The notes beneath the pieces are model-generated. The model ran no database searches. It was not told the origin of the DNA and saw nothing but the letters and a program-made list of their open reading frames with translations. This document shows, piece by piece, positions 6,542 through 9,551 of a DNA stretch of 64,000 bases (the stretch's first letter is position 1; the number at the start of each line of letters is the position of its first letter). The DNA comes from Bacteroidota bacterium. Its GTDB lineage: Bacteria; Bacteroidota; Bacteroidia; AKYH767-A; 2013-40CM-41-45. The position numbers were made by a program, and so were the translations under genes. The stretch lies in NCBI GenBank assembly GCA_004295015.1, contig SHNE01000035.1:62001-126000 (forward strand), read 5' to 3'.

Positions 6542-8011
6542 TTATATTTTTTCGAGAGCTTCCAGTAATCGTACCATTGCCAGCGTATCCATTTTGCAAT
6601 AGGCCAAAAGTTGTTTTCTTATTGCATCGACATCGGCATTCTTATCATAGATCAATTGTTCAAAAGCAAGGCTTGCTGAACCGCCATCAGCAATTTCCAG
6701 TGCGTCGTAGTTCATTTCAGGAACGACTGCCGGCAACACTTGTTTGATCGAATAAGAACCATTCATCTCAGGTTTATAATACCAGCCTTTTCTGAAAGGA
6801 GGCATAAGGTCTATCAGGCGCTCACATCGATCTTCTATTTCGTTTTTATATTTAGGGAAGTCCCTGGCAATTGACTCAAGTATTGAGCGTTCAAAGCTGA
6901 CATTGTATGCAAGAATACTTCCTGAAGATCCGGTGTCTTCCAATAATTGCTCAATGAATGGAATGCGTGGATCACCTGTGATCGGGGCTAAAAACTCGGT
7001 GTGTTTTAATGAAGCCGATTTGGATTTTTTATAGTGCAGGGAATATTGAAAAGCAATTTGTTGGTATGGTTTGCTTTTGGGATACAATGGGACTGCGGGC
7101 TGAAATGTTTCGAAGTCCATGAAGTAAAGAGGATATGAGAATTCTTTCAGAAAATTTCTGACAGATACTGAGTCAATATTGGTTTTCCCGTTTAAATGAC
7201 ACTCAACTTGCATCGATTGGTACTCATTGAGAACAATTTCTTCAGTAAGATCTTCGAAACGGAGGATTCCGTTTTCATAAAGTTCAAATTTTTTATTTGA
7301 ACGAAGTCCCGAAATTGAAAACACGGAAGGCTCCGGAATATGCTTCCAGCAATGATGCATAAATTCACATGAATAAGGCTCGAAACAATGGGTGCCAATA
7401 CCAATTTTTGGTTCCTTCTTTGATTCAATCAATAATTTTAATTCAGATATTTTATTTTTTATAAAAGATTGCTGATCGACGGCTTCGTCTTTTACAGATT
7501 CCATGAAGAATAATTCTTCAAGTACCAGGTTTTTTTTTCGAACGTATTCATTGTTCAGATGAACAATAAATATATCTGCGAGCTCTATTTCTGATTTGGT
7601 GATAACATGATATTGTAAGGCTGCATCGAGGATATTTACATCCTTGACACTTGTTGAGCTCTTTACCTCGTATGCCTTCCACTTGCCATTTTTTTTCACA
7701 AGAATGTCTACTGCTGCCAGCACTCCCTGATACTGAAAGGCTGCCTCATAAATTATTTTTACGCCTTGATCAATGAGGTCTTTGGTTAGCTTAACGGATT
7801 TCTGGTACTCGAATGGAGTTTCGGGTGAAGCATCTGTTCCCCCCGGGAATAATTCGCGGGCTAGCTGACCAACAGAAGTCCCTCTGTCAAAAACAGCCTG
7901 CTGCATTTCAGAAACCTCTAATCTTAGATCTCTTCTGAATTTATTAAAATAAAGTCTTTTAAGACATTGTGTTCCGTATAGAAAAGTGGACTTAGATAGA
8001 ATATGGCGCAT
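6542..8011 (-). CDS. DUF2779 protein: Fe-S PD-(D/E)XK nuclease fused to a DEDD exonuclease
   Basis: This 489-residue protein matches the DUF2779 (PF11074) family. The N-terminal half looks like a Cas4/RecB-type nuclease: D102 followed by E115-V-K117 as the catalytic core. Four Cys that could bind a 4Fe-4S cluster are C16, C209, C215 and C221, in a C-x5-C-x5-C context ending HHCW. The C-terminal half resembles a DEDDy 3'-5' exonuclease: D299-F-E301, N370-x-x-F-E374, and Y471-x-x-x-D475 at the C-terminus. All key residues are intact. The family has no settled function. Its promoter region carries the same operator-like site as the WYL regulator gene upstream (gap 133 bases), so it is probably controlled by that regulator. 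Confidence 0.85.
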   Translation of the reverse strand: MRHILSKSTFLYGTQCLKRLYFNKFRRDLRLEVSEMQQAVFDRGTSVGQLARELFPGGTDASPETPFEYQKSVKLTKDLIDQGVKIIYEAAFQYQGVLAAVDILVKKNGKWKAYEVKSSTSVKDVNILDAALQYHVITKSEIELADIFIVHLNNEYVRKKNLVLEELFFMESVKDEAVDQQSFIKNKISELKLLIESKKEPKIGIGTHCFEPYSCEFMHHCWKHIPEPSVFSISGLRSNKKFELYENGILRFEDLTEEIVLNEYQSMQVECHLNGKTNIDSVSVRNFLKEFSYPLYFMDFETFQPAVPLYPKSKPYQQIAFQYSLHYKKSKSASLKHTEFLAPITGDPRIPFIEQLLEDTGSSGSILAYNVSFERSILESIARDFPKYKNEIEDRCERLIDLMPPFRKGWYYKPEMNGSYSIKQVLPAVVPEMNYDALEIADGGSASLAFEQLIYDKNADVDAIRKQLLAYCKMDTLAMVRLLEALEKI

Positions 8012-8030: not shown

Positions 8031-8038
8031 CAAAGATA
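8031..8038 (-). promoter_or_regulatory. -7 box of the DUF2779 gene
   Basis: On the minus strand this reads TATCTTTG, a full match to TAnnTTTG, 19 bases upstream of the ATG at 8011. The predicted leader is about 14 bases. The operator-like element at 8048-8065 covers the place where the -33 element should be. Confidence 0.6.
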
Positions 8039-8047
8039 ATGCAGAAG

Positions 8048-8065
8048 TACGCAACCTATATGCGT
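8048..8065 (-). promoter_or_regulatory. Operator-like element A (shared with the WYL gene promoter)
   Basis: Minus-strand sequence ACGCATATAGGTTGCGTA. It has inverted arms ACGCA/TGCGT separated by 7 bases. Sixteen of 18 positions match the element upstream of the WYL gene at 9170-9187. It lies about 10 bases upstream of the -7 box, over the -33 region, which suits a repressor or an activator site. Binding by the adjacent WYL protein is inferred. Confidence 0.6.
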
Positions 8066-8144
8066 TAGGGTAGTTTATCAAGTAACGTAAAAAACAGGTA
8101 TAACTGACTTGTGAAGAAACAAAAGTTGCAAAATGGGTGAGAAA

Positions 8145-9155
8145 TTATTTCGAATAATTTTTCAAAGCCTTTTTCAATGTATCCTGAATTTCGTTTTTCA
8201 ATTGTAATGGTTTAATAATTTTTACGTTTTCCCCATAGCTTAAAAGTTGCATGCTTAATTCATGCGAAGGAATTACATTGATGCTAATTCGAAATTCCTT
8301 TTTATTGTCTTTGATAATTTTTTGTGTATGGTGAATTGGTTGCGCTTTAATGTAAAGGCCTTCCAGGGGTGTGAAGGACAATTCTACTTTCACCGGAACT
8401 AAATCGTTCACTGTTATGCCAAAGGAATGGTAAAAGAACTTCCTGGCGTCGAAGTCGGATTTTTTTGTAAAGGGAGTTCGGGTTACATGCAGATTGCTAA
8501 TGCGATCGAGACCAAAAGTAAGGATTCGCTCATGTGTTGGCGAATATCCCGTGAGGTACCAACGATTTCTGTATTCACGAACAAGATAGGGCTGAATTTT
8601 ATGTTGACTCGTTTTGGCTTTACTGAAATTATGGTAATAAAAAATAATTTCTACAGGATCAGTAATTGCCTTCAGAATTTTTTCCAGATGGTTTGTTCCT
8701 TCCGAGTGTGAAGGTTTTTCAACTTGAATAATATCGGTAATTTCTGTACCATATAAGGAGCGACTGATTTGAACTGCCTGAAGGAGTCGTCCTATTGTAT
8801 TGTCAAACTCCTGAAGAATCGGGAAGTCCTTGAATTGCCTGAGCATACCTGCAGCAAATTCTAAGGCATACAGATCTTCTTGTTTTAAGGGAAGCTTAGA
8901 AATGGAGTATTGCGGATCGGTATAATAATAACCTTTTTGGGCTTTGTGGTAGTCTATGGGCGCGAAGAAATTTAAGCCTTCGTCAAAACGCATGGCATAA
9001 ATGTCTTTTTGTATTGTTGATTCCGATATTCTTTTTCCCAGCATGTTTCCACACTTATCCGCAAGTTCAGAAAGCGGAGGATAAGGCTTTTGTTTGTTTT
9101 TCAGCGCTTCATCAATCAGGCGATAGCGGGTATAGGCATCTTTATTCTTAGGCAT
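8145..9155 (-). CDS. WYL-domain transcriptional regulator
   Basis: A 336-residue regulator. Residues 1-60 form a winged helix-turn-helix-like region (LSELADKC..., RISESTIQKDIYAMR). Residues about 165-225 are the WYL domain, with IIFYYHN, then REYRNRWYLTGY (W199-Y200-L201) and the LDRISN motif, which bind small or nucleic-acid ligands in characterised members. The C-terminal WCX-like region runs to the end. WYL proteins of this length often control phage-defence or DNA-damage genes (BrxR and CapW are known cases). It sits directly upstream of the DUF2779 nuclease gene on the same strand. A shared operator-like sequence lies 15 bases before its own start codon, which predicts autoregulation and control of the nuclease. 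Confidence 0.88.
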   Translation of the reverse strand: MPKNKDAYTRYRLIDEALKNKQKPYPPLSELADKCGNMLGKRISESTIQKDIYAMRFDEGLNFFAPIDYHKAQKGYYYTDPQYSISKLPLKQEDLYALEFAAGMLRQFKDFPILQEFDNTIGRLLQAVQISRSLYGTEITDIIQVEKPSHSEGTNHLEKILKAITDPVEIIFYYHNFSKAKTSQHKIQPYLVREYRNRWYLTGYSPTHERILTFGLDRISNLHVTRTPFTKKSDFDARKFFYHSFGITVNDLVPVKVELSFTPLEGLYIKAQPIHHTQKIIKDNKKEFRISINVIPSHELSMQLLSYGENVKIIKPLQLKNEIQDTLKKALKNYSK

Positions 9156-9169
9156 AAAAAAAGATTAGA

Positions 9170-9187
9170 GCGCAGATAGGTTGCGTA
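9170..9187 (+). promoter_or_regulatory. Operator-like element B upstream of the WYL gene
   Basis: Sequence GCGCAGATAGGTTGCGTA, with inverted arms CGCA/TGCG around 7 bases. It differs at two positions from the minus-strand element at 8048-8065. It begins 15 bases upstream of the WYL ATG, where it would lie between promoter and start, a position expected for autorepression. The rest of the gap to 9551 (about 360 bases) shows no gene, repeat or clear promoter. Confidence 0.6.
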
Positions 9188-9551
9188 TGTGCATCTGTTA
9201 TTTGCAAAATGAGAAATGATTGTAGTGCAAACACGCTTCGTGTGGATTAATGCTTATGTACGAAGGTAAACGCTTTTTAACGATAGAGCAAGAGAATTAA
9301 TTTAATATAGAGATAATTTAATCTAAAATAATTATGAAATAAAAAGATTCCGGGTGTTTCAATTCGATGGTTTAACGTTTTTTAATTGCTTGTGGTAAAG
9401 CTCCAGTTTATACAAGCAAACCTGAGTTTTTCGGGCATCGAAGGAGTTAAAGTTTTAGCCGCTCCCGGGCTTTTTATTAATTGGATGATAAATTGGTTTA
9501 AATAGAAATTGGCCGATGAAAATAGTTGTCGAAGAATGACAATTTGAAAAA

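Follow-up and report, generated by a model that had tools for sequence, protein, structure and literature searches.

A candidate operator of a DriD-like WYL regulator at nuclease and recA promoters in Bacteroidota

We found that an 18-bp sequence shared by two promoter regions of a Bacteroidota bacterium is probably the operator of a DriD-like activator that turns on recA and a nuclease gene after DNA damage, independently of LexA, and for which we infer binding by a WYL protein, activation and a single-stranded DNA (ssDNA) signal. An earlier note on this DNA had taken the WYL protein for a repressor. The observation behind that note is real, important and larger than first noted, but its repressor reading probably has the direction of control reversed.

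Two operator-like sites adjoin a WYL regulator gene

The window, the whole 64-kb stretch of DNA that we analysed, contains ACGCATATAGGTTGCGTA on the minus strand at 8048-8065 and GCGCAGATAGGTTGCGTA on the plus strand at 9170-9187, as the earlier note had described. The two are identical at 16 of 18 positions. The CGCA and TGCG arms noted at a distance of 7 bases were also borne out, as both sites have half-sites of the form (A/G)CGCA-N7-TGCG(T/C); the 19-bp dyad form of the first site is AACGCATATAGGTTGCGTA (8048-8066). Allowing up to three mismatches, we observed only these two matches in the 64 kb, in agreement with the reported lack of a third window copy, and a dyad-based scan of the window recovered the same two sites. 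A shuffled 64-kb window gave a mean of 0.12 matches at up to three mismatches, and never two.

The WYL regulator gene (8145..9155, minus strand) is a single gene with one HTH-WYL-WCX set. It encodes 336 aa: an N-terminal winged HTH with a recognition helix at approximately residues 45-57, middle helices, and WYL (PF13280) and WCX (PF25583) domains, both assigned by Pfam. Pfam did not find the S24 peptidase domain (PF00717) in this protein. The nuclease gene (6542..8011, minus strand) encodes 489 aa, with a Cas4-like PD-(D/E)XK region carrying four cysteines (Cys 16, 209, 215 and 221), followed by a DUF2779/RNase-H-like region.

We observed that ACGCATATAGGTTGCGTA, a candidate operator by sequence match, covers the −33 region of the nuclease promoter, as claimed before. 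It is followed, at the distance of a sigma-A −7 box, by the predicted box TATCTTTG (8031..8038, minus strand; consensus match), in which TTTG begins 16 nt past the operator core. The candidate operator GCGCAGATAGGTTGCGTA does adjoin the WYL start codon, 15 bp 5′ of it, but its promoter-like geometry is directed rightward, away from the WYL gene. On this side TTTG (9201-9204) lies 16 nt past the core within an outward −7-like box, GTTATTTG (9197..9204, plus strand), which is kept in a relative of the same genus (G010). The outward-facing predicted promoter enters ~350 bp (9188-9551) in which we found no evident gene and no Rfam family. We rejected a small gene or RNA element in this position, as there was no Rfam match and no conserved open reading frame between G000 and G010.

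Further sites occur in the same genome

The earlier statement that no copy occurs elsewhere holds within the window, but not for the genome itself (3.86 Mb, 56 contigs), which has further sites on contigs C36 (C36:13240 and C36:21010) and C4 (C4:191432). The genome contains the core pattern CGCANNCTATNTGCG in exact form four times, at both window sites and at both C36 sites. The C36:13240 site is identical; it follows xseA/xseB-like genes and precedes an ASCH-like gene interrupted by an early stop. The C36:21010 site lies ~33 bp before a HIRAN gene (PF08797, 4e-16, Pfam). The C4:191432 site, with one change from the core pattern, lies upstream of recA. We take the xseA/xseB, ASCH and recA genes of this genome to be such from their sequences. 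The ASCH-like gene with its early stop (L176, ~1600-1740), beside the xseA/xseB-like genes, appears to be a decayed regulon member. We discarded a match within coding sequence (C7:96755) and chance-like single-mismatch matches on C2, C5:172483, C33 and C34.

Sites keep a fixed distance to the −7 box

In the eleven promoters first inspected (nuclease, ASCH, HIRAN and recA of this genome, and recA of seven relatives), core and 8-bp −7 box were separated by a gap of 12 or 13. Because these promoters had guided the pattern, we repeated the analysis blind to the box, using exact-spacing ACG-N11-CGT dyads in WYL loci chosen regardless of promoters. We observed TTTG exactly 16 nt past the core in 36 of 45 dyad sites, and other TTTG offsets within 30 nt accounted for only six among the same 45; effective numbers are below 45, because some sites are from close relatives (L105-L111). 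Given a TAnnTTTG box at −12 to −5 (PMC9723704), the dyad centre falls near −31, on the position of the −33 element, and a −33 box is absent. The exact TTTG spacing therefore suggests that the site takes the place of the −33 box, as in DriD-activated promoters, which likewise have a fixed distance from the dyad to the downstream box. These data fit activation better than repression, because a repressor site needs no such exact spacing.

The WYL protein resembles DriD and PafBC

DriD is an ssDNA-sensing WYL activator (PDB 8tp8, 8tpk and 9pfq). PafBC is a WYL activator of mycobacteria that controls a LexA-independent DNA-damage regulon, including recA, from promoters without a normal −35 element. 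A profile search with the WYL protein gave E-values of about 1e-16 for DriD and PafBC, against about 1e-3 for CapW/BrxR. Foldseek with an AlphaFold model (pLDDT 79.7, pTM 0.48) gave 1e-15 for DriD, 1e-13 for PafBC and 3e-9 for CapW/BrxR. The Foldseek alignment to DriD spans 343 columns, and the profile-matched region starts past the HTH. Within the WYL domain, R218 is kept and G215 replaces the first arginine of the ssDNA-binding R-x-x-R pair of PafB. Judged by sequence and modelled fold, the protein is best read as a variant of the DriD/PafBC type of damage activator.

The earlier note had proposed that the WYL protein represses both itself and the nuclease. A repressor of the BrxR/CapW type, bound to an inverted repeat, would silence the two genes until a damage or phage signal released it. 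BrxR and CapW are WYL proteins that act at inverted repeats to repress defence loci (PMC9122601, PMC9122588), a site in this position would block the −33 region too, and one site lies near the WYL start. We nevertheless consider such repression unlikely: the exact −7 box spacing together with the lost −33 box suits activation better, the protein is closer to DriD and PafBC in profile and fold, BrxR sites have another layout (11-bp repeats with a 5-bp gap), the WYL-side site faces outward, and sites reach recA and the HIRAN gene. The proposal keeps its shared operator linking both genes and a likely DNA-damage signal, but loses its BrxR/CapW-type role. The site beside the WYL gene may also hinder WYL transcription.

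Sites accompany WYL genes in relatives

WYL genes of the same family were present in 114 of 395 Bacteroidia genomes (E below 1e-40). The WYL loci scanned for dyads held 45 sites compared to about 2.5 expected, and 22 of these were within 300 bp of the WYL gene. All WYL-upstream sites having a −7 box (13/13) were directed away from the WYL gene, and all eight sites within 300 bp downstream of it were directed at the next gene. The exact core GCANNCTATNTGC had 11 copies in 19 kb of WYL-upstream DNA versus 9 in ~769 kb elsewhere in the same loci, and several of the latter also precede genes, e.g. Thg1-like and ATPase-like ones. In rumen Bacteroidales, whose WYL protein is ~30% identical, TACGCAAATAGGTTGCGCA lies ~60 bp before the WYL gene. 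A Thg1-like tRNA guanylyltransferase gene lies behind a site in this group (L105, 2469-3227), which suggests RNA repair in the regulon.

The arms differ by lineage yet stay symmetric (AACGTAAATAGATTACGTT, TTCGCAGATAGGTTGCGAA and AATGCAAATAGGCTGCATT; in other lineages AATGCA..TGCATT, CCGCA..TGCGG and AACGTAA..TTACGTT). Such joint change of the two arms is expected for the operator of a homodimer. The half-site type fitted recognition-helix residues 46 and 49 in 42 of 42 proteins, GCA sites occurring with Q49 or R46 and GTA sites with an acidic residue 49 and no R46; one genome with a GTA-type recA site (G358), placed in the GCA group on the basis of a distant site, was moved to the GTA group before this test, which is slightly less blind as a result. 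The fit is suggestive but no independent proof, because the tree needs only two changes.

The earlier note had suggested looking for the motif upstream of both genes in homologous loci. We observed sites near the WYL gene in many families, but none at the nuclease gene in G002 and G331. The WYL and nuclease genes of G002 are divergent with no site in between, and the G331 nuclease has no site; nuclease control is therefore not general. We rejected the REP-like palindrome CGCAAAGGCGCAAAG in the G002 gap (L020, 2290-2370) as the operator. The actual site of this locus lies downstream of the WYL gene, before an AAA ATPase gene.

Sites precede recA in WYL-positive genomes

In a scan blind to the box, the DNA upstream of recA contained a dyad in 20 of the 43 WYL-positive genomes, with 0.07 expected from shuffles; six of the 43 recA loci had been fetched for a known site, and without those the count was 14/37. 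Of these 20 sites, 14 had TTTG at an offset of 16 or 17. The same scan found recA without a site in about half of the WYL-positive genomes, and no recA upstream dyad in nine WYL-negative genomes (0/9). In some genomes the site precedes a peroxiredoxin-recA operon. Composite sites per genome averaged 1.33 in strongly WYL-positive genomes (control pattern 0.28) versus 0.27 in WYL-negative ones (control 0.17), as class-wide raw genome counts that ignore kinship. WYL-negative genomes with listed composite-site positions had none at recA.

These distributions also bear on whether the sites are those of a different regulator, such as a CI-like non-canonical LexA, with the WYL gene a mere regulon member. 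LexA proteins of this kind regulate recA and dinB in the phylum (PMC8565304), a homologue is present on contig C3 of the window's genome, and the dyad GTAA-N5-TTAC is similar in layout to CTAA-N5-TTAG. We give this explanation little weight, since the sites are concentrated at WYL genes and are commoner where a WYL gene is present, and since spacer bases are irrelevant for LexA (PMC8565304), yet the TA centre is conserved here. The WYL protein is also the better candidate binder because the DNA upstream of the LexA homologue has no site, here and in G010, and because G363, with three composite sites, lacks an S24 protein. The C3 gene (L325, 1564-2364) encodes a CI-like S24 protein, probably a non-canonical LexA homologue, and two damage regulators may coexist in this genome. 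Canonical LexA was rejected as the regulator: only 8 of 395 Bacteroidia genomes scored above the cut-off, and this genome was not among them.

Chance or a functionless dispersed repeat is highly improbable: the motif is short and REP-like palindromes occur in related loci (L020), but the sites exceed the expectations for the window (0.12) and for recA (0.07 versus 20 seen), the arms vary while staying symmetric, and the flanks are not repeated.

Discussion

Our preferred reading is that of a WYL activator. DNA damage would produce ssDNA, most likely held by the WYL domain; the ssDNA ligand is the least certain step, because one of the two PafB ssDNA arginines is missing. The WYL protein, probably as a homodimer, would bind the ACG-N11-CGT dyad centred near −31. 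The bound dimer would substitute for the −33 box and recruit sigma-A RNA polymerase to promoters that have a −7 box only, so that recA and nuclease expression would rise. In this genome, the putative targets comprise the DUF2779 nuclease, recA, the HIRAN-domain protein, the broken ASCH-like gene and the outward promoter beside the WYL gene.

In relatives, the genes right behind composite sites encode RmuC, a UvrD helicase, an RNase_T exonuclease, DUF6361, an AAA ATPase, and PARP-like and PIF1-like proteins, and also Cas9, reverse transcriptases and an N6 methylase, although single composite-site matches may be chance (about 0.2-0.3 per genome). The sites before Cas9 (L294, 1-1908), two retron-like reverse-transcriptase (L313, 9358-10842; L317, 2302-3588) and N6 methylase (L291, 2317-4101) genes hint at damage-induced immunity. 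A protein of 106-112 aa with no known family is encoded directly behind a site in three genomes (L281, 2116-2451; L286, 2106-2423; L287, 1721-2038) and is likely a recurrent regulon member. We lean, by a small measure, towards a LexA-independent regulon of many Bacteroidia in which a WYL activator drives recA and one composite promoter joins repair (RmuC, UvrD, HIRAN and nucleases) to immunity (Cas9, retron-type reverse transcriptases, a restriction-type methylase and DUF6361). If this is true, DNA damage switches on repair and phage defence together.

Bacteroidota were long believed to be without an SOS response; in 2021, CI-like repressors were shown to run one in some clades, whereas other clades have lost these repressors or keep them in reduced form (PMC8565304). 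A WYL activator whose promoter code at recA can be read would be a second, different answer and would explain damage control without LexA. The sequence rule (dyad, N11, TTTG at 16) would help to find damage-inducible repair and defence genes across Bacteroidota, a large, ecologically and medically important group. We found no description of a WYL regulator of recA in Bacteroidota in the open-access literature, to which our search extended, and as far as that literature goes a DriD/PafBC-type WYL damage activator is new for the phylum.

Among known systems, the non-canonical LexA of Bacteroidetes (PMC8565304) shares the phylum and control of recA after damage, which is inferred here; it differs as a CI-like repressor with an S24 peptidase, other motifs and no WYL domain. 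BrxR and CapW are likewise WYL regulators with inverted repeats beside defence genes. They differ in being repressors, more distant in sequence and fold, with another site layout, the BrxR repeats lying just downstream of its promoter.

PafBC is similar as a WYL regulator with a site at recA and promoters without a normal −35/−33 box, although activation in our case is a prediction. PafBC works as a heterodimer on an asymmetric −26 motif, whereas our system has one gene and a symmetric dyad.

DriD of Caulobacter crescentus has the consensus ATACGAC-N7-GTCGTAT, with sites on the −35 element at a constant distance to the −10 element, and the site at driD serves a divergent operon (PMC12340889). 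Our system differs from DriD in its phylum and TAnnTTTG promoters, in its inner half-site bases (CA or TA here, AC in DriD), in having recA among its putative targets, in a divergent gene that is not evident in the window's genome, and in protein sequence (about 19% identity, with one ssDNA-contacting arginine replaced). Both have one chain with HTH, middle helices, WYL and WCX, and a pseudo-palindrome of about 20 bp with half-sites 7 apart and ACG-N11-CGT. In both, the site lies on the −35/−33 element at a fixed distance from the downstream box, the site by the regulator's own gene faces the divergent direction (all 13 boxed upstream sites here), and the regulon, predicted in our case, includes nucleases.
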